In this document: positions 9,165 to 29,119 of the stretch, one piece after another
Layout: each line of letters opens with the position of its first letter
How positions within the stretch are numbered: the stretch's first letter is position 1
Source of the DNA: a virus
Direction: 5' to 3' (one strand)
Virus record (IMG/VR): IMGVR_UViG_3300009130_000095
Span: 1-30,554 of that record
Length of the DNA: 30,554 nucleotides
Made by a program: the position numbers and the translations under genes
Notes under the pieces: model-generated
What the model saw: the letters and a program-made list of their open reading frames with translations, nothing else
The model's database searches: none
Told to the model about the DNA's origin: nothing

Positions 9165-10388
9165 ATGCTATTTCAAACCTTAGATGACAAGGAAGAATGT
9201 GTAGGTATTTATGCCGACAACAGTTTGATATTTGATGCCGATCAATTCCCCTCCACTCTTTCTAAAACATGGTCATATGCCCCTCATTTGCGCAAGTATG
9301 AGGATATCGAGTATGCGCAAATTTATTTAGAGGGGAGCCCATTGAAGGAGGTGTTACCCGAATACCTAAGAGATGATTGGGAGGATGTGAGTGCTCGACT
9401 TCGAGCTTTCAGGAGATCTCTTGCCATTGCTCAAGTTGATTTGAGTGAAACATGTTTTTATGATCTGGTGCCTTCCCGATTTTTAGTGGAACTGTGTGAA
9501 GTAAAAAACCACATTACAGAATATATTTTTCAAAACATAGCCCAACCATCCAGATATGCTTTTTATAAAAAGATGAGTATGTTGCTGGGTGACCTCTCTC
9601 ACCAGGGGGTGCGGCTGGACAAGCGTAAGATTTCGTCCTATGGTGTCACTCCCAAATATCAGAACCAGTGCAAGCGCCTGCTGGACGGTCCCTCTACGGT
9701 TAGTTACAATCTGTTTGGGACGAAGACAGGGCGACTCACGACAACGAAGGGGTCTTTCCCTATCCTTACCCTCAATAAGGTTTTTCGGGATGCTATCTTG
9801 CCCCATCATGACTGCTTCGTTGAGTTAGATTTTAATGGAGCCGAAATCCGCACGCTCTTGGGACTCCTCAAACGTCCGCAGCCCGAGGAAGATGTTCATC
9901 AATTTCATTTAGATACTGTTTTCCCGAAGGGTACCACACGAGACGAAGCTAAAACTATATTTTTTGCGTGGCTTTATGGTTCGCGAACGGCAGCCGACCC
10001 GCAAGTGATGAAACATTTAGAGGATTATTATAATAAAGAGGAACTCCTGGGGCAATATTGGGATGGGGAATATGTGCGTACTCCTTATCACAAGGTCATC
10101 AAGAATACATCCGAGCACCATGCTTTGAACTATTTGGTCCAATCGACCGCCGCCGACCTTGCCCTCCTTCAGTTTCTTAAAATTGAAGAACTTCTGCGCA
10201 CCCAAGGTACGGGGTCGCGGATTGCATTTTTGATTCACGATGCGGTGGTTTTGGATTTTAAAAATGCCGACCGCCACCTACTTAATTCCATAGTCACGCT
10301 TATGTCGTCTACACGTTTTGGACCGTTTAAGGTTAACATTACGGAGGGGCGAACATTGGGGCACATGAAGGATATGCAATATGGATAA
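9165..10388 (+). CDS. Compact family A DNA polymerase
   Basis: A 407-aa protein with the family A (Pol I) polymerase motifs in order: TKTGRL (residues 186-191), motif A FVELDFNGAEIR with catalytic D222, E227 and R229, motif B R259-x3-K263 followed by FFAWLYG (266-272), the NYLVQSTAAD block (322-331), and motif C IHDAVVLDF with D359. It is far shorter than Pol I (928 aa) or T7 polymerase (704 aa). There is no recognisable 3'-5' or 5'-3' exonuclease domain in the 180 residues before TKTGRL, and the A-B spacing (about 37 residues) is below that of Pol I. Motif C reads HDA instead of the usual HDE. The catalytic Asp pair and the binding Lys are present, so activity is plausible. It lies at the end of the tail module, away from the main replication genes and from dnaE, and overlaps the next gene by 8 nt. 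A repair or gap-filling role is an inference. Confidence 0.85.
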   Translation: MLFQTLDDKEECVGIYADNSLIFDADQFPSTLSKTWSYAPHLRKYEDIEYAQIYLEGSPLKEVLPEYLRDDWEDVSARLRAFRRSLAIAQVDLSETCFYDLVPSRFLVELCEVKNHITEYIFQNIAQPSRYAFYKKMSMLLGDLSHQGVRLDKRKISSYGVTPKYQNQCKRLLDGPSTVSYNLFGTKTGRLTTTKGSFPILTLNKVFRDAILPHHDCFVELDFNGAEIRTLLGLLKRPQPEEDVHQFHLDTVFPKGTTRDEAKTIFFAWLYGSRTAADPQVMKHLEDYYNKEELLGQYWDGEYVRTPYHKVIKNTSEHHALNYLVQSTAADLALLQFLKIEELLRTQGTGSRIAFLIHDAVVLDFKNADRHLLNSIVTLMSSTRFGPFKVNITEGRTLGHMKDMQYG

Positions 10389-11235
10389 GGTTATAGGTAT
10401 AGGGGAAACGGGCTGCCGCCTCGCGGATGAATTATCAGAGCATCCAGAATACCGAATCTATAAAATAAGAACGGGAGCCAAGGAGCGTGGTACCCTGAGT
10501 ATTGATACCCATGGGGACATGGAAGAGTACGAGAAAAATTTTGATGCTGAAGAGGCATACATCTATCTTCGCTCGATTAAAAAAGATGATGATGTATTGG
10601 TGGTTGTGGGCGGCGGAGCCCCCATCAATGGGATTTTGCTGCGCCTCTTGGAGAGCATCCACCATGCTAATTTAAATGTTTTATATGTGTGTCCTGATCG
10701 CACCATGACCTCTCAGGTGGAGCGTCGCGACGACAAAATCGCCTTTAATGTATTGCAAGAATATGCCCGGAGCGGCATCCTTGCGCAGTTATTGTTGGTA
10801 GACAAGCCCACCGTAGAGAAGTATGTAGGAGAGGTATCCATCCATGACTATGAACAAAGTATAGCACATCTCATATCCTATGGCTTTGCCATGGTTAACT
10901 ATTATAACCATACCGACCCTATATTGGGAACCTCTCGCGACACCACCCCGTGGTCACGGATTACTTCTTTTGGACTGTCGTCGTTGGAAGAAGATAACAC
11001 TGATGTTAAATTGTTTTTTCCCCTGAAGGATCCCAATTCCTATCATTTTTTCTATGGGGTCCCGGCGGAGATGCTGGCCTCGGACGGATCCTTGATGCAA
11101 AAGATTAAATCCCATGTAAAGTGTTATAAAACCGACGCAGCTTCAGCAAGTTTTTCCGTCCATGAAACAACTTTCGAAAACCTTATGGTACTTTGTACGG
11201 GTTATAGCGATAAAATTCAGCCTTTTGTAACGTAG
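10381..11235 (+). CDS. Divergent tubulin/FtsZ-fold protein
   Basis: A 284-aa protein whose layout follows the FtsZ/tubulin fold. It has an N-terminal strand and loop (KVIGIGETGCRLADEL, residues 3-17, compare FtsZ GxGGxGxNxV), then a strand ending in VVVGGGAPINGILLRLLE (74-91, at the place of the GGGTGTG signature loop). Next come NVLYVCPDRT (99-108, compare the VVTKPF strand), ERRDDKIAFNVLQEYARSG (114-132), QLLLVDKPTVEKYVG (136-150, compare the IPNDKLLKV segment) and a long helix to about 175. A C-terminal domain with strands at 209-214 and 267-274 completes it. The signature loop keeps only GGG and a later Gly, and no clear NxDxxD catalytic loop is visible near 173-180, so GTP hydrolysis may be lost. 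It overlaps the polymerase gene by 8 nt. The phage tubulins PhuZ and TubZ are possible functional relatives, but the fold assignment is by eye. Confidence 0.5.
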   Translation: MDKVIGIGETGCRLADELSEHPEYRIYKIRTGAKERGTLSIDTHGDMEEYEKNFDAEEAYIYLRSIKKDDDVLVVVGGGAPINGILLRLLESIHHANLNVLYVCPDRTMTSQVERRDDKIAFNVLQEYARSGILAQLLLVDKPTVEKYVGEVSIHDYEQSIAHLISYGFAMVNYYNHTDPILGTSRDTTPWSRITSFGLSSLEEDNTDVKLFFPLKDPNSYHFFYGVPAEMLASDGSLMQKIKSHVKCYKTDAASASFSVHETTFENLMVLCTGYSDKIQPFVT

Positions 11236-11316
11236 TTCTAAACTGCCGAATCTCACTCACTAAACTATTTAGACTATGCAGCCAACGATGTGACTGTACT
11301 AAGCAAGGAGAAGTCT
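11236..11316 (+). promoter_or_regulatory. Intergenic leader with CTAAACTATTTAG hairpin
   Basis: This 81-nt gap holds a small perfect inverted repeat, CTAAA-CTA-TTTAG (11260-11272), whose core AAACTATTTA recurs exactly at 29461-29470, upstream of the acidic protein gene. No sigma70-type -35/-10 pair was found. It may be a phage-specific (for example late) promoter element, or chance. The downstream ribosome binding site AAGGAG is at 11305-11310. Confidence 0.3.
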
Positions 11317-11751
11317 GTGAGTCAACGAAAAGGTTTTTTATTAGCGTCCTTTATTACCACTGAGAGTAGTGATCAAATACAACAAGAAGTTCAGTTTATC
11401 GCGGACAATCTTAATCTCACTGCTCCTTATATTTTCTTGTTGGGGAATGTTGAGGACCCTACTAAAAAAATCCTAACCTATAATGCCCAGACCGAGCGCG
11501 GCCAGAGTTTTAATCCCCGTCTTTACACCCTACGCCTTCATCGCAAAAAGCAGACAAATACTCTTTACACCATCAATGCTCTTAACTTAGCCCTGGCTAA
11601 AGAACATGAGGGCGCAAGCGGTTCACACCTCCGACTGGACTGGGAGGCTTACCGCAATACCATGCTTTTGACGGCGGGAAAAAAACTTCAAGTTTATCCC
11701 ATTGAAGTTCTGAAGATTTTTAAGATTGAGCCCCTTCCCGAGGAAAAATAG
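11317..11751 (+). CDS. Conserved-looking phage protein, function unknown
   Basis: A 144-aa protein. An in-frame GTG at 11290 exists, but GTG 11317 is preferred since AAGGAG (11305-11310) is 6 nt upstream and the sequence then opens with MSQRKGFLLASFITTE. The fold looks alpha/beta: an opening strand, a helix (SSDQIQQEVQFIADNLN), a strand (YIFLLGNVEDPTKKILTYN), a basic strand (LYTLRLHRKKQTNTLYTIN) and a helix ending in YPIEVLKIFKIE. No catalytic motif was recognised. It sits directly before the promoter of the SSB gene, after the tubulin-like gene. The basic HRKK segment could bind nucleic acid, but that is speculation. Confidence 0.6.
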   Translation: MSQRKGFLLASFITTESSDQIQQEVQFIADNLNLTAPYIFLLGNVEDPTKKILTYNAQTERGQSFNPRLYTLRLHRKKQTNTLYTINALNLALAKEHEGASGSHLRLDWEAYRNTMLLTAGKKLQVYPIEVLKIFKIEPLPEEK

Positions 11752-11817: not shown

Positions 11818-12588
11818 ATGGGTATTGACTTGAATAAAATGAGGGCGAAGCACGCTGCTCTCACGAACCGAGGCGGAGACTCTTCGGACAACTTTTGGAA
11901 GCCAGAAGAAGGCACTCACCAGGTTCGCTTGGTCTGCCCTCCAAACGGCGATCCTTTCTTTGAGGCGTATTACCACTACGGCATGGGTGCCGAGGGTAAG
12001 ACCACAGTCCTCAGTCCTCGCACGAATGGCGACGCTGATCCCATCGCAGAGTGGGGAACCCGCCTTTGGAATGAAGGCACCGACGGCTCCAAGGAAGCAG
12101 CCAAACGCTTTTGGCCTAAGATGCGAATCTTTGCTCCCGTCGTCGTTCGCGGCGAAGAGGATAAGGGTGTTCGCTGGTGGGGCTTTTCCCGCACCACCTA
12201 CCAGGCTCTACTCGATGTAGTGCTTGACCCCGAGTACGGTGACATTACGGACACCGAAAAGGGAACGGACCTGCGTATTGACTATGGCAAGAAGTCTGGT
12301 CAGCAGTTCCCAACCACGGACGTCCGTCCGATGCGTCGCACCAGCAAGCTCGCCAAGACTGAAGAAGAGGTCAACACTCTTCTGGAGAGCATCAAGGTTG
12401 CCGATGATATTTTTGAGGTAGCCACTTACGAGGATTGCGAGAAGGTGCTCAACGAGACCTTGGGCGATACTGAAGCCACCAATGACGGGGATGAGACCAC
12501 TCGCTACAACAACACCACCACCAAGACCGATAATAACTTGGAAGGTGTCAGTGACATCGAATCAGCGTTCGACGATCTTTTAGCGTAG
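11818..12588 (+). CDS. ssb: Single-stranded DNA-binding protein, T4 gp32-like
   Basis: A 256-aa protein with the layout of T4 gp32-type SSBs. It has a basic N-terminal segment (LNKMRAKHAALTNRGG), a central domain rich in aromatics and basic residues (FWKPEEGTHQVRLVCPP; EAYYHYGM; RWWGFSRTTYQALL), and an acidic C-terminal tail ending SDIESAFDDLLA, the usual site for contacting replication partners. SSBs of this type coat single strands during replication, recombination and repair. T4 gp32 is 301 aa; this is a little shorter. The four cysteine/histidine zinc ligands of gp32 are not obvious here. It has a strong promoter and ribosome binding site, fitting the high expression such proteins need, and lies just before recA. 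The sequence is too divergent for a stronger claim than family level. Confidence 0.75.
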   Translation: MGIDLNKMRAKHAALTNRGGDSSDNFWKPEEGTHQVRLVCPPNGDPFFEAYYHYGMGAEGKTTVLSPRTNGDADPIAEWGTRLWNEGTDGSKEAAKRFWPKMRIFAPVVVRGEEDKGVRWWGFSRTTYQALLDVVLDPEYGDITDTEKGTDLRIDYGKKSGQQFPTTDVRPMRRTSKLAKTEEEVNTLLESIKVADDIFEVATYEDCEKVLNETLGDTEATNDGDETTRYNNTTTKTDNNLEGVSDIESAFDDLLA

Positions 12589-12649: not shown

Positions 12650-13720
12650 ATGGCAAACAAAGCTGGAAATAGCCTTGTAAGTGATTTGCGCAGCGAATTA
12701 AACAAGGCAGCTAAAGAGAATATTGCATACGATTTGCACGGGGACAACCCGACAGACGTGAAGACTTGGATTCCAACGGGTTCGACTCTTCTTGATTATA
12801 TTATTTCTAACCGCCGAGACGGGGGTATCCCTGTCGGCAAGCTCACCACGATTGCTGGCGAGTCTGCCAGCGGCAAGAGCCTTATCGTCACGCAGATTTT
12901 GGCGAACACACAAAAGATGGGCGGCATCGCTGTGTATATTGACACAGAGAACGCAGCCTCTCCAGACTTCATGGAGCAGTTGGGACTTGACACCAAGAAC
13001 AATTTCTTATATGTTCAGCCTGGCACGATCGAAGAAGTCTTTGAAACGATTGAGCGACTGATTGGCCGCCTCCGTGAGAAGGCACCTGACCGCCTGGTCT
13101 GTATTGTGTGGGACAGCGTTGCGGGCACCCCAGTCAAAGCCGAGGTGGAAGGGGACTATGATCCCAACAGCCGCATCGGTCTGACAGCTAAGGCATTAGC
13201 CAAAGGGATGCGGAAAGTGACGGAAGCTCTGGGCAAAGAACAGATCGCTGTGGTTTTCACTAATCAGTTGAAGACCAACATCGGCGTGATGTTCGGAGAC
13301 AACCGAGTCGAGCCTGGAGGTAAAGCTCTTCCTTATCATGCTTCCACTCGTATCTGGCTGACCCAGCACAAGGGCAAAGCCAACGGTCAAATCCTCAACG
13401 AGAAGAAGCAGGTCATCGGCTTCCACACCAGTGCCAAGACGATGAAGTCTCGCTTCGGACCATCACCAAGGAGTTGTGAGTTTGATGTATTATTTGACCT
13501 TGCTAACGACCGTGTTGGCGTTGATGATGAAGGTTCCTGGCTTAGTGCTATCGCTGGCACGCCTGGCTGTATTCGCAGCGGCGCTTGGTATACTATCAAT
13601 GTTGACGGGGAAGATAAAAAGTTCCAAAGCAAAGACTTCTTAAACCTTCTGGAAGACAAGAAATTCAAAGAAAGAGTTCTTGACATTTTGGAAGATGAGT
13701 GTAGAATAGGTAAGAAGTAA
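12650..13720 (+). CDS. recA: RecA/UvsX-family recombinase
   Basis: A 356-aa RecA-family ATPase that drives homologous pairing and strand exchange. Visible are the Walker A loop GESASGKS (residues 70-77), the catalytic glutamate region YIDTENAA (E100), the Walker B strand VCIVWDSVAG (D155), and FTNQLKTNIGVMFGD followed by EPGGKALPYHAS. That last block matches the RecA L2 DNA-binding loop and its FINQIRxKIGVMFG neighbourhood. Length matches bacterial RecA (about 350 aa), and the L2 region looks closer to RecA than to T4 UvsX. It follows SSB, as recombination-dependent replication would need. The start at ATG 12650 has GGAG 5 nt upstream, within the hairpin listed separately. The assignment is firm. 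Confidence 0.93.
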   Translation: MANKAGNSLVSDLRSELNKAAKENIAYDLHGDNPTDVKTWIPTGSTLLDYIISNRRDGGIPVGKLTTIAGESASGKSLIVTQILANTQKMGGIAVYIDTENAASPDFMEQLGLDTKNNFLYVQPGTIEEVFETIERLIGRLREKAPDRLVCIVWDSVAGTPVKAEVEGDYDPNSRIGLTAKALAKGMRKVTEALGKEQIAVVFTNQLKTNIGVMFGDNRVEPGGKALPYHASTRIWLTQHKGKANGQILNEKKQVIGFHTSAKTMKSRFGPSPRSCEFDVLFDLANDRVGVDDEGSWLSAIAGTPGCIRSGAWYTINVDGEDKKFQSKDFLNLLEDKKFKERVLDILEDECRIGKK

Positions 13721-14749: not shown

Positions 14750-16243
14750 ATGCCCGAACAACAATACGATACATTCAGTAAGTTCGGAAAGGCGTTCCAA
14801 GAAAAATTAGTGAAGACCATTCTCTTTGATCGCAACTTTGCGAATCAAATGGAGGAAGTTCTTGACACCACGTATTTGGAATTAAAATATCTTCAAGTCT
14901 TTGTCGATTTGATGTTTCAACATAAACAATCATATCCTCACCCCACCTACGAAGCGATGGTTTCAGTGGTGCGTACGCAGACTGAGGACTATTCGGATAG
15001 TATTGTCAAACAAGTTATCGAGTTTATGGCTCGTATCAAAAGCAATGCCATCGGTGACGACGATGAAGAGTATGTCAAGGAGAAGTCGTTAGACTTCTGT
15101 AAGAAGCAAAAGTTAAAAGAAGCCATCCTCAAATCGGTTGACCTGCTCCAGTCTCAGAGTTTTGACCAGATTCAAAAGGTCATCAACGAAGCCATGAATC
15201 TTGGAACAGACAACGACCACGGGCACGACTACCACAAAGACGTCCTTGACCGCTTTGAACTGAAGATGCGCAACCCTGTCTCTACCCACTGGGATGAGAT
15301 TGATATGATTACTAAGGGCGGCCTCGGCAAGAGGGAGCTTGGCGTTGTTGTCGCACCCACCGGTGCCGGGAAGTCTATGGCTCTTGCCCATCTGGGGGCG
15401 ATGGCGGTAGTCAAAGGCAAGACAGTAGTTCACTACACATTGGAACTAGCCGACACGGTTGTGGGACAACGCTACGATTCCTGCATCACAGGTATTGATT
15501 TAAAACACTTGATGACCATGAAGGATTCCATCCTCCAAGTGATTGAGCATATCCCTGGACAATTGATTATCAAAGAGTATCCTACCAAGTCCGCTTCTAC
15601 ACGAACGATCATTGCTCATTTAGAAAAACTAAAACAAAAAGGCATCAACCCCGATATGATTATTGTGGACTATGCTGACCTTTTGAAGCCAACAGCGTCT
15701 GGTTTTAAGACCCAGGAGCTACGCCACAGCCTCGGCAACATCTATGAAGAACTGCGAGGCATCGGACAAGTTTGGGACATTCCAGTATGGACAGCATCCC
15801 AAACCAATCGCAGCGGATTGAACGCCGAGGTCATTACGATGGAATCTATCAGCGAAGCATTTAGCAAGTGCTTTGTGGCTGATTTTATCTGTTCCATCTC
15901 CCGCACGATTGAGGATAAGACCGAGAACAAAGGTCGCATGTTTGTTGCCAAAAACCGCAACGGTATTGACGGCATTGTCTACCCCATGGAGATTGACACA
16001 GCCAAGGTTCATCTCAAGGTTCTCCCTCCCGATGAGTGTTCGACGATCGATGCGGTCGTGATGAAGACCAAACAAGAACAAGATGAACATCTGCGTCAGA
16101 AATACCAGAAGTTCAAACAAGAACGCCGGAACGCAGTCAAAGAAGAAGAGAATAAAAAAAAACAAGTGAATGAACAAAAGAGTTTAAAAGATGAGTTACG
16201 AGAATTAGCGACACACGTAAAACAGGAGCAACAAGCATCATGA
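14750..16243 (+). CDS. dnaB: Replicative DNA helicase, DnaB/gp41 family
   Basis: A 497-aa hexameric-type helicase that unwinds DNA 5'-3' at the fork. The N-terminal 160 residues are helical, as in the DnaB/gp41 primase-contact domain. The RecA-like motor follows: WDEIDMITKGGLGKREL, Walker A APTGAGKS (202-209), the HYTLELA strand typical of DnaB helicases (228-234), Walker B PDMIIVDYADLL (D307), then VWTASQTNR and the MFVAKNRNG arginine-finger strand. A Lys/Glu-rich tail (about 440-497) extends past the motor and may be a contact for other replisome proteins. The gene overlaps the reductase gene by 4 nt (ATGA). No primase was found in this window, and the protein has no primase domain, so primase must lie elsewhere or come from the host. 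Confidence 0.92.
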   Translation: MPEQQYDTFSKFGKAFQEKLVKTILFDRNFANQMEEVLDTTYLELKYLQVFVDLMFQHKQSYPHPTYEAMVSVVRTQTEDYSDSIVKQVIEFMARIKSNAIGDDDEEYVKEKSLDFCKKQKLKEAILKSVDLLQSQSFDQIQKVINEAMNLGTDNDHGHDYHKDVLDRFELKMRNPVSTHWDEIDMITKGGLGKRELGVVVAPTGAGKSMALAHLGAMAVVKGKTVVHYTLELADTVVGQRYDSCITGIDLKHLMTMKDSILQVIEHIPGQLIIKEYPTKSASTRTIIAHLEKLKQKGINPDMIIVDYADLLKPTASGFKTQELRHSLGNIYEELRGIGQVWDIPVWTASQTNRSGLNAEVITMESISEAFSKCFVADFICSISRTIEDKTENKGRMFVAKNRNGIDGIVYPMEIDTAKVHLKVLPPDECSTIDAVVMKTKQEQDEHLRQKYQKFKQERRNAVKEEENKKKQVNEQKSLKDELRELATHVKQEQQAS

Positions 16244-19368: not shown

Positions 19369-19925
19369 AAAAATTAATAAACAATTTTCGTCAGTTTTTA
19401 GCCGAAGGGCAGATGAGTGATTACGACAAAGATGGGGTTACTGCACTGTACCACTATGCGGATATGGGATACTATGGACAACCAGATGAACTGGTCATCG
19501 ATCCAAATAAGTTTGGCGCATCTTCCTATTCTCGTAACGAAAAGGAGCGGAGCAACTTTCCTCGATCTTTCTTTTATCTGGATCCCCAACAAAGGGAACG
19601 CAATGTAGCGCAAGGCAAAACTCTTTATACTTATGATATCCCCACCACTCAACTCTACGATTTTCGCACTGACCCTATGGGTTATGACCGCATAAGGTCA
19701 GAAGAAAATCCCAATGGACTCATTGCTCCTGATAATCCTACCAAACGGTTGTACCAAGGAGAAGGTCCCGGCACGTGGGGAGAACTTTTTGAGCAAGTAT
19801 CTAAAAATTATGATGGAATGTTTTACTCTTTACGCAGCTTTGATGTTGTAGTATTATTTAAACCTGTAGCCGCCAAGCGCATCCCCTCTGATGAGCAACG
19901 TGCGCTTGAGCAACCCTCCCCATAG
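19365..19925 (+). CDS. Protein with head-targeting-like leader, possible ADP-ribosyltransferase-like fold
   Basis: A 186-aa protein. ATG 19365 is chosen because it overlaps the upstream stop (ATGA) and gives the leader MKKLINNFRQFLAEGQ. This parallels the previous protein and the T4 capsid-targeting peptide, with a possible cut after LAE. The body begins LYHYADMG, then LVIDPNKFG, YSRNEKERSN, PRSFFYLD, TLYTYDIPTTQLYDFR and, near the end, WGELFEQVSKN. The order of an LYH-type strand, an LDPxxxG turn, an R-rich stretch and a FFY strand recalls toxin-like ADP-ribosyltransferase folds in phage proteins, but I cannot confirm catalytic residues. An alternative is an unrelated conserved phage family. 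No membrane segment or signal peptide is present. Confidence 0.5.
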   Translation: MKKLINNFRQFLAEGQMSDYDKDGVTALYHYADMGYYGQPDELVIDPNKFGASSYSRNEKERSNFPRSFFYLDPQQRERNVAQGKTLYTYDIPTTQLYDFRTDPMGYDRIRSEENPNGLIAPDNPTKRLYQGEGPGTWGELFEQVSKNYDGMFYSLRSFDVVVLFKPVAAKRIPSDEQRALEQPSP

Positions 19926-19938
19926 AAAGGTAACTAAA

Positions 19939-20901
19939 ATGATTAGAACCGCTGAGTGCATTACGCCTCACCACCCAGATAAAATTTGTGATCGGATCTC
20001 AGATGCAGTATTAGATGCGTGTTTGGCGCAAGATCCTCACTCTCGGGTTGCTGTTGAGACTTTGGGCGGCCATCGAAAAATTGTAGTAATGGGCGAAGTG
20101 ACTACCGATGCTAAGATAGATATTCCCCAAGTCGTGCGGAGCGTTTACCGTGATGTGGATTGCATTGATGTGCACGTCGTTACACAAAGCAATTATATAT
20201 CCCAAGGAGTGGATGTGGGCGGAGCCGGTGATCAGGGAATCATGGTAGGATATGCCTGTAATGAAAATCCGGCAAAAATCCCCCATGAATTATTTTTAGC
20301 ACGGCAGTTATGTCAGCTACTCTATGCAGAGTTTCCCTTTGATGGAAAAACTCAGATCACTTTGGATACAGGAGAGATCACAGCAGTAGTAGCCAGCTTT
20401 CAAAATGCCCCCGGAACCGTCCTCCGCGAACGAATAGAAGATTGGTTAGAATCTTTGGGTGAAGATGCGTATACCGTGGACCTTGAGATTCATGTGAACC
20501 CGGCGGGGGACTGGGACATGGGTGGCTTTGATGCCGATACAGGCGTCACTGGTCGTAAATTAGTAGTGGACAATTATGGACCCCGTGTTCCTATTGGAGG
20601 GGGAGCCTTCTCCGGCAAAGACCCCAGCAAAGTTGATCGCTCCGCTGCCTATATGGCGCGCCGCATTGCTGTGGATTATCTCGATTATTATAAGGCGGCA
20701 GAAGTTTATGTATATTTAGCCTATGCAATTGGTCATCCTTCTCCCGTCCAAGCTACGGCGATTGTGGACGGCAAAACTTATATGGTAGATGGTTATGACC
20801 TTACGCCGGAGGGTATTATAAATTTATTAGAACTAAAAACCCCCAAGTATCGTCGAACAGCTAACTGGGGTCATTTTGGCAACGGGTTTATCTGGGGTTA
20901 A
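19939..20901 (+). CDS. metK: S-adenosylmethionine synthetase (MetK)
   Basis: A 320-aa methionine adenosyltransferase, making SAM from methionine and ATP. The start is ATG 19939, giving MIRTAECITPHHPDK, with GAAAGG (19925-19930) upstream; an upstream in-frame ATG at 19891 lies inside the previous gene. The family motifs are intact: HHPDK (11-15), GAGDQGIMVGYACNE (95-109), LTGRK-like VTGRKLVVD (203-211), GGGAFSGKDPSKVDRSAAY (220-238) and the C-terminal RRTANWGHFG. It is about 60 residues shorter than bacterial MetK (384 aa), with loss mainly in the region between residues 135 and 190. All ATP and methionine loop residues that I can place are kept, so it is probably active. It would support the MT-A70 methyltransferase encoded 4 kb downstream. 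Confidence 0.93.
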   Translation: MIRTAECITPHHPDKICDRISDAVLDACLAQDPHSRVAVETLGGHRKIVVMGEVTTDAKIDIPQVVRSVYRDVDCIDVHVVTQSNYISQGVDVGGAGDQGIMVGYACNENPAKIPHELFLARQLCQLLYAEFPFDGKTQITLDTGEITAVVASFQNAPGTVLRERIEDWLESLGEDAYTVDLEIHVNPAGDWDMGGFDADTGVTGRKLVVDNYGPRVPIGGGAFSGKDPSKVDRSAAYMARRIAVDYLDYYKAAEVYVYLAYAIGHPSPVQATAIVDGKTYMVDGYDLTPEGIINLLELKTPKYRRTANWGHFGNGFIWG

Positions 20902-21417: not shown

Positions 21418-24400
21418 ATGGCAAACCGAATTGAAAGCAAGATCCCCTTCGTGGGATTACATGCCCACTCAGGACTCTCCCCTTTTGACGGGCTGGGGAT
21501 GCCTGGTGAACACATGGACTTCGCCTACGAGAACGGGATGAACGCCCACGCTCTAACAGACCATGGACATATGAACGGCTTGTCATTTCAGGTGGAACAC
21601 TTGAAGCAAATGAAGGCAGACGGCAAAGACTTCCGAGCCCTCTACGGATGCGAATCCTACTTCATCAAGTCCCATCGTAAATGGCGCACAATGTATGAGG
21701 AACACAAAGCCAACTCAAAGCGCCGCCAAAAGAAGGAAGAGTACGGGATGGTTATTGAGGATGAGGATCGCCAGAAAAAGCGCAACCCCCTCAACGAACG
21801 ACGCCACCTCGTGATGGTTGCACAGAACCAGGCAGGTCTTAATAATTTATTCAAGTTAGTTTCAGACAGCTACCAGCCTGAAAACTTTTATCGCTATCCT
21901 CGTATGGATTTTGAGATGCTCGACAAATATAACGAGGGACTGATCATCAGCAGCGCCTGTATGTCTGGTCCTTTGTTTGCCGACTTCTGGAAGAACCGAG
22001 ACAACGGTGAGGAGCATGTGCTTGCTGCCATGCGCAACACGATTGCTCAATTCAAAGAGATCTTTGGCGACAGGTTCTACGGCGAAGTCCAGTGGAACGA
22101 TATCAAAGAACAGCACGAGGGGAACAATTATATTATCCAAGCCTGTATGGAAATGGGTGTTGAAGTAATCAGCACCGCCGACAGCCACTACCCCCGACCA
22201 GAACTTTGGAAAGACCGGGAGATGTACAAGCGCATCGGTTGGGGCGGCAAGGTTCCCGAGTGGGCTGACCCCGACAGCCTCCTTCCAACGTCGGTCGATG
22301 AAGTCGGCTACGAACTCTACCCGAAGAACGGCGATCAGATGTGGGAGTCCTACAAGAGGTATTCCGGCAAGCATCAGATTGAATACGATGACACTTTCAT
22401 CCGTGATAGTATTGAGCGGACGCACCATATCGCCTTTGACCGATGCGAGGACTTCCTACCCAACAGCGAAGTGCGCCTCCCGGAATTCGTGGTCCCCGAA
22501 GGGAAGACTGCCATTCAAGCTCTGACCGCCGATGCTCTTGCGGGCATGAAGAAAAAGAATATCACCGACCCGGAGTATGTGGATCGCTTGAAGTATGAAC
22601 TCAACATCATTAAGGAGCGTGGGTTCGCTCAATATTTCCTGACGATGAAAGCCATCTCGGACAAAGCCCAGGAGGAAATGCTGGTCGGACTTGGACGAGG
22701 TTCCGCAGCCGGTTCACTTTTGTCATATGTCCTCGACATTACGCAGGTGGATCCTATCAAGTACGCGCTTCAATTTGAAAGGTTCTTAACGAAAGGGGGG
22801 AAAGGGTATCCCGATATTGATTTTGATGTGGAGGAACCCATGGCCCTTAAGGAGCAGTTAGCGGAGGAATGGAGCAAGATCGGCGTCAATGTGGTCCCCA
22901 TCAGTAACTTCAACACGCTCCAACTCCGCTCACTTATCAAAGACATTGGCAAGTTTTATAATATCCCATTCACCGAAGTGAACAAGGTGACCGGTGTGAT
23001 GATGAGCGAAGCCACACCACTAGCCAAGAAGGCACACGGTCAGACCGCTGGCGTGTATACTCCCACATTTGACGAGGTAAAAGAATACAGTGAAACTCTT
23101 CAAAACTTCTTCCAAAAGTATCCTCATATTGAGACTCATGTTGATAATCTGTTCGGCAATATGCGGAGCATATCACGACACGCTGGTGGCGTGGTGGTAG
23201 CGGAAGACTTAGACAAGCACATGCCGCTCATCAACTCTGGCGGTGTCATCCAGACTCCATGGAGCGAGGGGCAGAACGTCAGGCACTTGGAGCCGCTCGG
23301 CTTTATTAAGTTTGACTTGCTCGGCTTGTCAACTCTCCGTATGATTTCGGGAGCAATCCGTCACATCCTCAAACGCCATCAGGGAATTGAGGAGCCGACC
23401 TTTGAGCAGGTAAGAGATTATTATAATACTCATCTCCATCCAGACGTGATTGACTTTGATAATCAAGAAGTCTGGCGTGAGGTTTTCCACAAAGGGAAGT
23501 GGGCAGGCATCTTCCAGATGACTAACGGCGGAGCACAACGGTTCTGCCAAGAAGCCCAACCAGAATCTCTTTTGGACTTCGCTGCGGTCACGGCTATCTT
23601 CCGCCCTGGACCACTTAGCGCCAAGGCTCACAGTCTGTATGTCGCAAACAAGAGCAACCCCAGCCAAGTACACTACGAGCACCCAATCATCAAAGAAGTG
23701 CTCGGCGATACATACGGCTTGCTGGTCTTCCAAGAGCAGTTGGCTATGCTCGCCCACAAGCTGGGCGATGACCTATCGCTGGACGAGGGCAACCTGCTTC
23801 GCAAAGTCCTGACGAAAAAGGGAACAGGAAAAGATAAAGTAAAGAACAAACTCTATAAGAAGTTCGTGAAGGGTTGTAACAACCACGGCTTGTCAGAGGA
23901 GATCGCCAAGAACCTCTGGGCAAAGATGGAATACTTCTCAGGCTACGGCTTCAACTTGTCGCACGCGGTTTCCTACGGTGCGGTGTCCTTCCAGTGCGCG
24001 TGGCTAAGTTATTATTATCCCGTTGAGTGGATGGCTGCGTTCTTGGACAAGGAGCCAGAAGATAAAAAGGCAGGAGCAATTAACACCGCCAAGTCCTTTG
24101 GGTTCGAGATTGTCCCGCCAAGCGTCAACAAGTCAGGACGAGTCTGGGAGATTGCCGAGGACGGCAAAACATTAATTCAACCGCTTGCTGGCATCAAAGG
24201 TTTAGGCGACAGCGCCATTGATCAGATTGTGAGCAACCGGCCCTTCAACACCGTGGAAGAGTTCCTGTTCAATGAGAACATTACTTACTCCAAACTCAAC
24301 AAGAAGGCTCTGGATGTTTTGGTGCGGAGCAAAGCTCTTGACGAGTTGATGGACGACAGGTTCACAGGTCTTAAACACTATTGGTCAGCCATTGCTGTGG

Positions 24401-24837
24401 ACAGACCGCGCAAGGAAAAGAACCTTGAGGACAACATTGCACTTTACGCCCCCGAGGGAGACTTCACGGACGAAGAGAAGCTGGAACACTTCGCATCTCT
24501 CACCGGCATCTTTCCGATCCACGAGATTATGCCACAAGAGATTCAGGACAATTTAATGGGACGAGGTTGCCCACCCATCAGCGAGTATGATCCCGACCTT
24601 CAACTGGTCTGGTTCATTCCGAGGGAAGTAAAAATAAAGAAGACAAAGAACGGCAAGGAATACTGGGTCATCCACACGACTGACAGTAATGCTCACGACG
24701 CCCGCATCCGCTGCTGGGGCGTGAGAGATGACGACAAGATTTCCCTTAATAAAGTATATGTTGCCAACTTAGAATATAACGAGAAGTGGGGATTCAGTAC
24801 CCGCTCCATCAGACGCAGCTTTAGGAGGCTCACTTGA
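21418..24837 (+). CDS. dnaE: DNA polymerase III alpha subunit (family C)
   Basis: A 1139-aa family C replicative DNA polymerase, about the length of bacterial DnaE (1160 aa in E. coli). The N-terminal PHP domain keeps metal ligands: H15-x-H17 (GLHAHSG), D48-H49 in LTDHGHMNG, GCESYF, the GLIISSACMSG strand and ADSHYPRPE. The polymerase part shows GLGRGSAAGSLLSYVL (about 424-439), catalytic D466 and D468 in YPDIDFDVE, HAGGVVVAEDLD, and the third catalytic D633 in FIKFDLLGLSTL. FRPGPL and the NLSHAVSYGAVS block follow. A helix-hairpin-helix region (about 930) and a C-terminal OB-fold-like segment (from about 1065) end the protein. The complete PHP ligand set suggests it may proofread by itself, since no epsilon exonuclease is seen. 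Its stop overlaps the next start. Confidence 0.96.
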   Translation: MANRIESKIPFVGLHAHSGLSPFDGLGMPGEHMDFAYENGMNAHALTDHGHMNGLSFQVEHLKQMKADGKDFRALYGCESYFIKSHRKWRTMYEEHKANSKRRQKKEEYGMVIEDEDRQKKRNPLNERRHLVMVAQNQAGLNNLFKLVSDSYQPENFYRYPRMDFEMLDKYNEGLIISSACMSGPLFADFWKNRDNGEEHVLAAMRNTIAQFKEIFGDRFYGEVQWNDIKEQHEGNNYIIQACMEMGVEVISTADSHYPRPELWKDREMYKRIGWGGKVPEWADPDSLLPTSVDEVGYELYPKNGDQMWESYKRYSGKHQIEYDDTFIRDSIERTHHIAFDRCEDFLPNSEVRLPEFVVPEGKTAIQALTADALAGMKKKNITDPEYVDRLKYELNIIKERGFAQYFLTMKAISDKAQEEMLVGLGRGSAAGSLLSYVLDITQVDPIKYALQFERFLTKGGKGYPDIDFDVEEPMALKEQLAEEWSKIGVNVVPISNFNTLQLRSLIKDIGKFYNIPFTEVNKVTGVMMSEATPLAKKAHGQTAGVYTPTFDEVKEYSETLQNFFQKYPHIETHVDNLFGNMRSISRHAGGVVVAEDLDKHMPLINSGGVIQTPWSEGQNVRHLEPLGFIKFDLLGLSTLRMISGAIRHILKRHQGIEEPTFEQVRDYYNTHLHPDVIDFDNQEVWREVFHKGKWAGIFQMTNGGAQRFCQEAQPESLLDFAAVTAIFRPGPLSAKAHSLYVANKSNPSQVHYEHPIIKEVLGDTYGLLVFQEQLAMLAHKLGDDLSLDEGNLLRKVLTKKGTGKDKVKNKLYKKFVKGCNNHGLSEEIAKNLWAKMEYFSGYGFNLSHAVSYGAVSFQCAWLSYYYPVEWMAAFLDKEPEDKKAGAINTAKSFGFEIVPPSVNKSGRVWEIAEDGKTLIQPLAGIKGLGDSAIDQIVSNRPFNTVEEFLFNENITYSKLNKKALDVLVRSKALDELMDDRFTGLKHYWSAIAVDRPRKEKNLEDNIALYAPEGDFTDEEKLEHFASLTGIFPIHEIMPQEIQDNLMGRGCPPISEYDPDLQLVWFIPREVKIKKTKNGKEYWVIHTTDSNAHDARIRCWGVRDDDKISLNKVYVANLEYNEKWGFSTRSIRRSFRRLT

Positions 24838-25385
24838 AGAAGTATCAAATCGTTTATGCCGACCCACCCTGGGATTACAAAGGACAACTCCAGCACACAG
24901 GGAAAGGGGGTCCTGATAGTGGTGGCGCAGTACGACACTACGGCTGCATGAAACTACCAGAACTAAAGAAGATGGATGTGCCTAGTTTGTGTGACGATGA
25001 CTGTTTGCTTTTCCTGTGGGCAACGAGCCCTCACCTTGACCAAGCCATCGAACTGATGAAGGCATGGGGATTCTCCTGGGCAACCGTAGGATTTGTGTGG
25101 GATAAACAAAAAGTAAACCCTGGCTTCTACACAATGAGCCAAGTAGAACTCTGCTTGATTGGCAAACGTGGGAAGATTCCGAAACCAAGAGGAGCCCGCA
25201 ACATCCGACAGATGGTTTCAGTTATGCGAGGAAAACACAGTGCCAAACCTTCCGAAGTAAGAAAAAGAATTGAGGAAATGTTCCCAGAACAAAACAAACT
25301 GGAATTGTTTGCCCGGACTGAGATTGACGGCTGGGACTGTCACGGCGATGAGGTCGAAGCAGATATTATTTTGGCGGCGAGCTAA
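24834..25385 (+). CDS. MT-A70 family adenine methyltransferase
   Basis: A 183-aa SAM-dependent N6-adenine methyltransferase of the MT-A70 family. The catalytic motif is DPPW (residues 10-13, in VYADPPWDY). A short HYGCMKLPELKKM helix, the LLFLWATSPHLDQA block, GFVWDKQKV, CLIGKRGKIPK and the terminal LELFARTEIDGWDCHG segment are all usual in phage and bacterial members. The start is TTG 24834, which overlaps the dnaE stop (TTGA) and has a perfect AGGAGG (24823-24828) 5 nt upstream. Known members methylate adenine in DNA or RNA; the target here cannot be read from the sequence. Modification of phage DNA against host restriction is the likely use. No restriction enzyme gene is adjacent, so it is an orphan methyltransferase. 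Confidence 0.9.
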   Translation: MKKYQIVYADPPWDYKGQLQHTGKGGPDSGGAVRHYGCMKLPELKKMDVPSLCDDDCLLFLWATSPHLDQAIELMKAWGFSWATVGFVWDKQKVNPGFYTMSQVELCLIGKRGKIPKPRGARNIRQMVSVMRGKHSAKPSEVRKRIEEMFPEQNKLELFARTEIDGWDCHGDEVEADIILAAS

Positions 25386-27830: not shown

Positions 27831-28089
27831 GAAGAAGCTCAAGCGCGCAAAAAAGAAGCAAGAGCAGCAAAAGCTTCAAGAAGTGCAAAAAACACTTCAG
27901 CGTCAAATGAATATGTTCCAGCGGTTGCCAGGGGAATGTAGTGCGTGCACGACCCCTTTCCCCAAAACCAAAGAAGCACATATGACGTGGCGAGTGGTTG
28001 TTCGCAGCAAGAAGAAACTCGTGCGCCTGTTCTGCCCCGAGTGCCAACAAAAAGCCAAAGAATTGGTGGAGAATAATAATGAAGTTTAA
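27814..28089 (+). CDS. Zinc-ribbon protein with Lys-rich N-terminus
   Basis: A 91-aa protein. ATG 27814 has GGAG (27803-27806) 7 nt upstream; an in-frame ATG at 27697 lies within the previous gene. The first 30 residues are nearly all Lys, Gln, Arg and Glu (MDKKHKKKLKRAKKKQEQQ), a basic coiled helix. Then C42-x2-C45 and C74-x2-C77 (ECSACTTPF and FCPECQQ) form a zinc ribbon, with a VVVRSKKKLVRLF strand pair between. Binding to nucleic acid is plausible. A helper of transcription or a nuclease accessory is possible, but nothing specific is shown. It overlaps the next gene by 11 nt. Confidence 0.7.
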   Translation: MDKKHKKKLKRAKKKQEQQKLQEVQKTLQRQMNMFQRLPGECSACTTPFPKTKEAHMTWRVVVRSKKKLVRLFCPECQQKAKELVENNNEV

Positions 28090-29119
28090 AGAAGCAGTCA
28101 CGTACGACGATATGCTCATCGTGCCCCAGTATAGTGATATTGAGAGCAGGAGCGAGGTAGATATTGGCAGCAACTTGGGACTTCGGGAATTTCCCCTTCC
28201 TATTATTGCATCCCCGATGGATACTGTTTCTGAGTCCGAGATGGCCCTTGCTATGAATGAAGCAGGAGGATTAGCTGTTCTGCATCGGTATAATACAATC
28301 ACCGAGCAGCAAAAAATGGCTCAGGTAGTGGTTAACTACACAGACTGGTCAGGACAAGTAGCAGCAGCCATCGGCGTCACAGGAGATTATTTAGAGCGTT
28401 CGGAAGCTCTGATCGCCACCGGAGTAGACATGCTCTGTGTGGACGTTGCCCACGGTCATCACTCCTTAATGAAAGAAGCTCTGACGACCTTGCGGGGAGA
28501 ATACGGAAATCATATTTATATTATTGCCGGCAACGTCTGCACCTTAGAAGGTATTAATGATCTGGCGGATTGGGGAGCTAATGCTGTCCGCTGTAATATT
28601 GGGGGCGGCTCTATTTGCAGCACCCGATTGGTTACAGGACACGGACTGCCCGGTCTCCAAACTATTTTCGATTGCGCAAGAACCGATAGGGATGTAGCCA
28701 TTATTGCGGACGGCGGGATCACCTCCTCTGGTGATATTGTCAAAGCGTTAGCTGCCGGCGCAGACTTTGTGATGTGTGGGTCTCTTTTGGCAGGAACCAC
28801 TGAGAGCCCCGGCAAGGTTATCAGCTTGCCGAGCAATATCCGAGTCAAGGAATATCGAGGCATGGCATCGAAAGACGCTCAACTCGACTGGCGAAAGAAA
28901 TCTTCCACTCCAGAAGGTGTGGCGTCCTACGTCCCCTTCAAAGGCAGTGTGCGTGATATCCTTCAGCAACTGGAGGGTGGGATTAAGAGCGGTTTCTCCT
29001 ATAGCGGGGCTCGGAACTTGACAGAACTCCGAGACAAGGTAGAATGGGCCCGGCAAACTTCTGCCGGCACCCACGAAAGTAATACCCATATTTTTAAACA
29101 GAATGGAACCAGAAAATAA
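28079..29119 (+). CDS. IMP dehydrogenase / GMP reductase family enzyme
   Basis: A 346-aa TIM-barrel enzyme of purine metabolism. ATG 28079 has GGTGGAG (28065-28071) 7 nt upstream; a longer in-frame start at 27998 overlaps the zinc-ribbon gene. Landmarks are TYDDMLIVPQYSDIESR at the start, IIASPMDTVSE (42-52), the active-site loop GGGSICSTRLVTGHG with catalytic C180, IADGGITSSGDIVKALAAGA, and KEYRGMASKDAQ. There are no CBS domains, so it is shorter than common IMPDH and equals GMP reductase (347 aa). The flap ends EGVASYVPFKGSV, which looks more IMPDH-like, so the exact reaction is open: IMP to XMP or GMP to IMP. Either would change guanine nucleotide supply. Confidence 0.9.
   Translation: MKFKEAVTYDDMLIVPQYSDIESRSEVDIGSNLGLREFPLPIIASPMDTVSESEMALAMNEAGGLAVLHRYNTITEQQKMAQVVVNYTDWSGQVAAAIGVTGDYLERSEALIATGVDMLCVDVAHGHHSLMKEALTTLRGEYGNHIYIIAGNVCTLEGINDLADWGANAVRCNIGGGSICSTRLVTGHGLPGLQTIFDCARTDRDVAIIADGGITSSGDIVKALAAGADFVMCGSLLAGTTESPGKVISLPSNIRVKEYRGMASKDAQLDWRKKSSTPEGVASYVPFKGSVRDILQQLEGGIKSGFSYSGARNLTELRDKVEWARQTSAGTHESNTHIFKQNGTRK

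Follow-up and report, generated by a model that had tools for sequence, protein, structure and literature searches.

What does the gene that begins inside the end of a compact family A DNA polymerase gene encode, and what might its product do there? We addressed this question in IMG/VR virus record IMGVR_UViG_3300009130_000095, whose 30,554 bases were analysed as a whole and are called the window below. A sequence-only reading of the window had proposed a divergent tubulin/FtsZ-fold protein that might be a catalytically reduced branch of its superfamily and a partner of the polymerase. We followed the gene, its neighbours, its fold and its motifs through related phage contigs, and weighed this proposal against four other readings.

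The gene and its compact polymerase neighbour

The open reading frame had been placed at 10381-11235, with a product of 284 aa and an 8-nt overlap with polA; its coordinates, ATG start and TAG stop were all correct, and the end of the polA frame (9165-10388) does run into it. The features around this junction are the following.

9165..10388, + strand: compact family A DNA polymerase, 407 aa, with D222, K263 and D359 invariant (Pfam DNA_pol_A, model, conservation)
10381..10388, + strand: start/stop overlap of polA and the tubulin-fold gene, 8 nt (ATGGATAA; from the ORF ends)
10381..11235, + strand: reduced tubulin/FtsZ-fold protein, 284 aa (ORF, ATG start, TAG stop)
11290..11751, + strand: conserved 153-aa protein, marking the junction that holds the tubulin-fold gene (directly follows polA in Immutovirus)
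11818..12588, + strand: single-strand DNA binding protein of the replication module (PHROG 1192)
12650..13720, + strand: UvsX/RecA-like recombinase (PHROG 97, Pfam RecA)
14750..16243, + strand: DnaB-like replicative helicase (PHROG 19)
21418..24837, + strand: DnaE-type DNA polymerase III alpha (PHROG 405; tblastn to phage Pol III alpha genes)

One IMG/VR scan returned 50 homologous loci of the tubulin-fold protein with 30-79% identity, and the dN/dS of the gene was 0.018-0.046 among the pairs of relatives close enough for measurement, indicating strong purifying selection. With 50 homologues in one scan and a dN/dS of 0.02-0.05, the frame is therefore not a chance one. Many relatives start the gene with TTG inside the end of polA (e.g. 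L015, 10001), which suggests that it depends on translational coupling. GTDB genomes yielded, with the patterns used, no relative of the reduced protein or of the GTPase-type paralogue described below, and a single-sequence query of the INPHARED phages gave no useful match to the reduced protein. Neither tubulin gene was seen in Flavobacterium phage immuto or Microcystis phage Mel-JY01, two relatives in culture.

The neighbouring PolA (407 aa) is shorter than the Bst Pol I large fragment (580 residues), to which its AlphaFold2 model (pLDDT 92.1) aligned with a Z of 25.5. By our reading, D222, K263 and D359 correspond to the motif A, B and C residues, and the fold together with these catalytic residues places PolA in family A. 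The window thus holds two DNA polymerases in one phage, the miniature family A enzyme (9165-10388) and the DnaE-type Pol III alpha (21418-24837). The latter is the probable main replicase, which probably makes PolA an additional polymerase. The window also encodes an S-adenosylmethionine synthetase (19891-20901), an MT-A70 methyltransferase (24834-25385) and an IMP dehydrogenase/GMP reductase (27998-29119).

The linkage between the two genes was invariable. The tubulin-fold start overlapped, abutted or lay 1 nt from polA in 48/48 loci examined first, a separate polymerase scan gave 96 untruncated compact-polA loci, each with the gene directly downstream (spacing -26 to +10 nt), and it was present in 44/44 loci of another survey; these surveys share contigs, and the polA scans covered the best-scoring relatives, so that compact polymerases lacking the gene may have been missed. 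Immutovirus-type loci, which have a polA of 441 aa and share the succession of polA, 151-aa gene and SSB, had the tubulin-fold gene in 0/73, and there a homologue of the 153-aa gene followed polA directly in 66 and another gene in 7. In seven such loci (L317, L318, L320, L321, L284, L286 and L297), polA and the 151-aa gene are separated by an extra gene of about 208-227 aa, which by profile is not a tubulin homologue. The order in Flavobacterium phage immuto, namely polA, 151-aa gene, SSB, RecA, exonuclease, DnaB and RNR, is that of the window, which makes the tubulin-fold gene appear to have been gained at the polA/153 junction, with loss from the Immutovirus lineage as the alternative. We also considered that the tubulin had replaced a lost PolA domain. 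This idea was weakened, as the Immutovirus PolA is already compact without a tubulin gene, which further shows that this type of polymerase can in general do without the protein.

Pairwise distances of the tubulin-fold protein tracked PolA distances most closely (r 0.92, and a partial r of 0.66 once five neighbouring genes were accounted for), with the linked neighbours p486 (0.82) and p153 (0.81) correlating too and the pairwise distances not being independent of one another. Both proteins diverge faster than SSB, RecA, DnaB and RNR.

Fold and sequence homology

The AlphaFold2 model of the protein, built from a 29-sequence alignment, had a pLDDT of 91.5 and a pTM of 0.90. A Foldseek search of the PDB with this model matched FtsZ and TubZ with E about 1e-11. 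By VIA-align the best match was CetZ (Z 25.2; 261 residues, rmsd 3.0), followed by CetZ2 (24.6), TubZ (23.9), FtsZ (23.3) and tubulin (21.9), with 261-281 residues aligned within residues 1-284 and both domains included. The viral model that matched best was an annotated FtsZ-type GTPase from an uncultured phage. The element order of FtsZ, said to extend along all 284 aa, was supported by this confident two-domain model but with gaps, since, as we mapped its elements onto FtsZ, the model secondary structure (DSSP) lacks helices H8, which would follow T7, and H9, which would lie between S7 and S8. A two-domain tubulin/FtsZ fold was thus found at Z 21-25 over almost the entire chain, and assignment to the tubulin/FtsZ superfamily is well supported.

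Sequence databases did not recognise the family. No model in Pfam, PHROG or NCBIfam did so, and PDB sequences gave no match with either the single protein or the family profile as query. Specifically, Pfam Tubulin and TubZ-like_C (PF00091 and PF22453), FtsZ_C, Tubulin_2, NCBIfam ftsZ (TIGR00065) and PHROG 4733 ('tubulin PhuZ') were all unmatched, and PHROG gave weak matches to unrelated families only. We compared profiles, one (A6) made from 36 sequences of the reduced family, a wider set gathered through the polA neighbour, and the other (A4) from GTPase-type phage tubulins. The two aligned in hhalign over 267 columns spanning both domains (probability 96.1, E 3.6e-9, score 70.8). As controls, reversed profiles scored 16-17, 40 block shuffles no more than 25.0, and a polA profile, unrelated to the family, 21.4. 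Sequence homology to accepted superfamily members, here the phage TubZ-like proteins, is accordingly not based on predicted structure alone. The single sequence of E. coli FtsZ aligned weakly with the reduced family over FtsZ residues 13-191; the FtsZ and TubZ-like comparisons are of unequal depth, and the phage TubZ-like protein is not ranked nearer than FtsZ.

These results bear directly on the reading that the protein is an unrelated Rossmann-like enzyme resembling FtsZ by chance. The silence of Pfam, PHROG and NCBIfam would suit such an enzyme, and GxGxxG, a pattern that counts in its favour, is a dinucleotide-binding pattern too. An unrelated or plain Rossmann fold is nevertheless contradicted by the C-terminal domain, which matches as well: both domains match tubulin/FtsZ structures with Z above 21, and the profile match to TubZ-like proteins spans both, which makes a chance resemblance barely credible.

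Motifs lost and kept across the family

The motifs were surveyed in an alignment of 107 unique members of the reduced family, with the following positions in the window.

10396..10416, + strand: T1-like glycine loop GIGETGC, residues 6-12, with G6 and G8 invariant (107-member alignment)
10609..10632, + strand: degenerate T4 phosphate loop, with GGGAPING at residues 77-84 instead of GGGTG[ST]G (alignments)
10756..10776, + strand: QEYARSG, residues 126-132, the best conserved stretch, with Q126, R130 and S131 invariant in the 107 members (alignment)
10801..10806, + strand: T6 position, D141-K142 (alignments)
10909..10959, + strand: T7 region, residues 177-193, lacking both NxDxxD and helix H8 (model DSSP, alignments)

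The departure from GGGTGTG that had been noticed in the signature loop is a property of the whole family. The window reads VVVGGGAPINGI at residues 74-85, GGGTG[ST]G occurred in 0/107 members, and relatives have EGGDPISG, VGSSYSSN, GGSGDVSA and similar loops, in which G78-G79 and G84 are mostly conserved. Likewise, the missing NxDxxD loop was confirmed throughout: the T7 motif is lacking in 107/107 members, and none has the conserved acids in this region. Catalytic loss in the reduced family is well supported by these alignments, and structure, profiles and family-wide motif loss agree on a new, catalytically reduced branch of the superfamily beside a compact family A polymerase, as first suggested. 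With the T4 loop, the T7 acids and H8/H9 gone, the protein very probably neither hydrolyses GTP nor forms classical dynamic protofilaments.

What the family has kept is less uniform. G11 of T1 is mostly conserved in addition to G6 and G8, and QEYARSG is likely to be an interaction or structural hot spot; this stretch, the C-terminal Q and the T1 glycines are suited to binding. In tubulin, the T6 and H7 asparagines contact guanine. At these positions, assigned in the reduced family by alignment, 24 members of a clade of 26 (support 100/99) have Asn at both, while in the window's clade (n=81) no member retains the T6 Asn and 7 retain the H7 Asn. Position 142 is thus Asn in 24/107, and most of the window's clade has Lys or Arg there. 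On the midpoint-rooted tree, phosphate handling and catalysis seem to have been lost first and base recognition later. The two lines of degeneration, with guanine contacts kept or lost, would be material for studying the death of a GTPase.

The retained residues raise the question whether the protein is an unorthodox nucleotide binder, using the T1 loop and what is left of the pocket to take up GTP or some other nucleotide and acting as a switch or a filament without the classical motifs. The conserved T1 glycines and the paired asparagines of the sister clade would fit such a function; the phosphate loop and T7 acids are missing in every member, and both asparagines are mostly lost in the window's own clade. 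On this alignment evidence we consider a nucleotide binder unlikely.

Partners, proposed role and known systems

Larger contigs of the group carry, close to the terminase gene, a separate GTPase-type tubulin of 378 aa. It matches Pfam Tubulin and TubZ-like_C above cut-off, its best match among solved structures is B. cereus TubZ (4ei7, E 1.7e-29), and it has a GGSGGG loop, the T7 sequence TTFDATDYD (D..D) and 92-95% identity between phages. Examples from phages of 178-190 kb are at L058 811-1944 (-) and L059 1399-2529 (+). Another GTPase-type tubulin, with a GGGGGTGSS loop, lies at L360 1375-2526 (+) on a sister-clade contig of 136 kb. A divergent GTPase-type clade (65-69% identity) had no reduced gene within contig reach, but as the stretches examined showed no homologue of the window's polA or replication genes either, this clade carries no information on the pairing. 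Two further observations concern the large phages. On the 178-kb contig G001 (L073, L074, L078), N-terminal peptides such as MKKLLTEWRKFLKE and MKITKSQLRKIIKEE recur on many otherwise unlike ORF products and are possibly a capsid- or prohead-targeting tag. By Pfam, the same contig encodes a GroEL-like chaperonin (L070 17702-19288, -), an FtsH-like protease (L071 5888-7714, -) and a site-2 (M50) protease (L074 7762-8583, -).

Both tubulin genes were present, in one order and 29-45 kb apart, in 16 of the 18 contigs that extend far enough upstream to be informative, the window itself being too short upstream to count. In the main group this held for 14/14 contigs, with a distance of about 30-34 kb, and in the sister group for G060 and G074. 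This constancy invites the reading that the reduced protein is a filament accessory, which caps, seeds or decorates the GTPase-type TubZ-like filaments of the phage and tethers the replicating genome to them through its co-production with PolA. The profile homology of the two tubulins agrees with it, as does the paralogue, which has retained its GGSGGG and D..D loops, and a top face without the T7/H8 bottom face would fit an end cap. Two contigs argue otherwise: G061 (161.7 kb, 142 kb of it upstream) and G062 (89.4 kb, 89 kb upstream), genome fragments like all contigs searched, have the reduced gene and no detectable GTPase-type tubulin. The rates of evolution are also very different (about 53% identity across phages for the reduced gene vs 92-95%), and the genes are far apart. 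A filament accessory therefore appears possible, though rather unlikely. The stricter idea of the GTPase-type tubulin as an obligate partner was weakened by the same two contigs, which make PolA the more constant partner of the reduced protein.

The invariable coupling to PolA points to a polymerase subunit or anchor. We propose that the reduced protein is a pseudo-GTPase tubulin dedicated to the compact family A polymerase, which it would serve as a non-dynamic partner, a proposal whose chances we judge to be even. Made from the gene that overlaps polA, it would join PolA as an accessory subunit or anchor and might in that role stabilise PolA on DNA or position it at the replication site. The suggestion of a polymerase partner made from the sequence thus gained strong circumstantial support from the invariant linkage and the distance correlation; the function itself, with physical contact and an effect on the polymerase, is read from genome context, adjacency and coupling being no proof of contact. 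Family A polymerases have comparable companions, borrowed from elsewhere: thioredoxin has such a role for T7 polymerase, and a dead tRNA-synthetase-like subunit for mitochondrial Pol gamma. By analogy with these, a family A polymerase of phages may also have taken on a borrowed protein. A polymerase partner would explain an otherwise unannotated gene of a large marine phage group. If true, the tubulin fold would be usable as a static binding module in replication with a DNA polymerase as its constant companion, a second phage use of tubulins beside spindles and partitioning. Somewhat more tentatively, a GTPase-stripped tubulin may by now be an obligate polymerase subunit in these phages, a cytoskeletal fold put to use in replication. 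The gene is conserved in about a hundred or more contigs of marine phages, and many of these encode a GTPase-type tubulin as well.

A host division inhibitor or decoy had been suggested as well, binding host FtsZ and blocking septation during infection. The FtsZ-like fold of both domains would allow it, and a protein without T7 and H8 could poison the end of a host protofilament. Its gene sits coupled to polA within the replication module rather than among early host-takeover genes, and nothing found in the analysis ties the reduced protein to FtsZ. The decoy is a weaker rival to the polymerase partner, and we regard it as quite improbable. A non-dynamic scaffold, the remaining function suggested from the sequence, may apply as well.

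Most of the tubulins known from prokaryotes and viruses form filaments driven by GTP. The closest structural likeness is to the archaeal CetZ proteins (M. thermophila CetZ, 3zid, and H. volcanii CetZ2, 4b45; Z up to 25.2), which bind GTP (4b45 was solved with GTPgammaS) and share 12-16% identity and no common motifs with the reduced protein. TubZ is alike in fold over both domains (B. cereus RepX, 4ei7, and B. thuringiensis TubZ, 2xka; Z 23.9 and 23.5), but the reduced protein lacks the GTPase signature, the T7 acids and H8/H9, is shorter at 284 aa and is linked to polA. FtsZ shares both domains and the element order (Z up to 23.3), and its GGGTGTG and NxDxxD are what the reduced protein lacks. 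Bacillus phage G gp138, annotated as a putative FtsZ-like cell division protein, exceeds the Pfam Tubulin cut-off and is distantly related, at 23% identity, to the marine GTPase-type tubulin; aligning it directly with the reduced branch gave nothing meaningful. As for the FtsZl-1/FtsZl-2 families, Pfam Tubulin_2, which we take to be their model, was not matched, and their loop is absent from the reduced protein. These families carry GGGTG(S/T)G as their signature GTP-binding loop (PMC2875224). PhuZ of nucleus-forming jumbo phages is likewise a phage-encoded tubulin fold and makes dynamic spindles (PMC13282480), but its catalytic loops are missing in the reduced protein, and phage tubulins in general have been described as filament formers (PMC13282480, PMC8314001, PMC7824862). 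Within the limited collection of literature searched, no GTPase-dead tubulin was linked to a polymerase. A cellular archaeal precedent for degenerate loops, which we liken to the reduced protein by its description, is the FtsZ of Nitrosopumilus maritimus (Nmar_1262), with the degenerate GTP loop AGKAGSA, no T7 loop and no polymerisation in yeast (PMC3684127).
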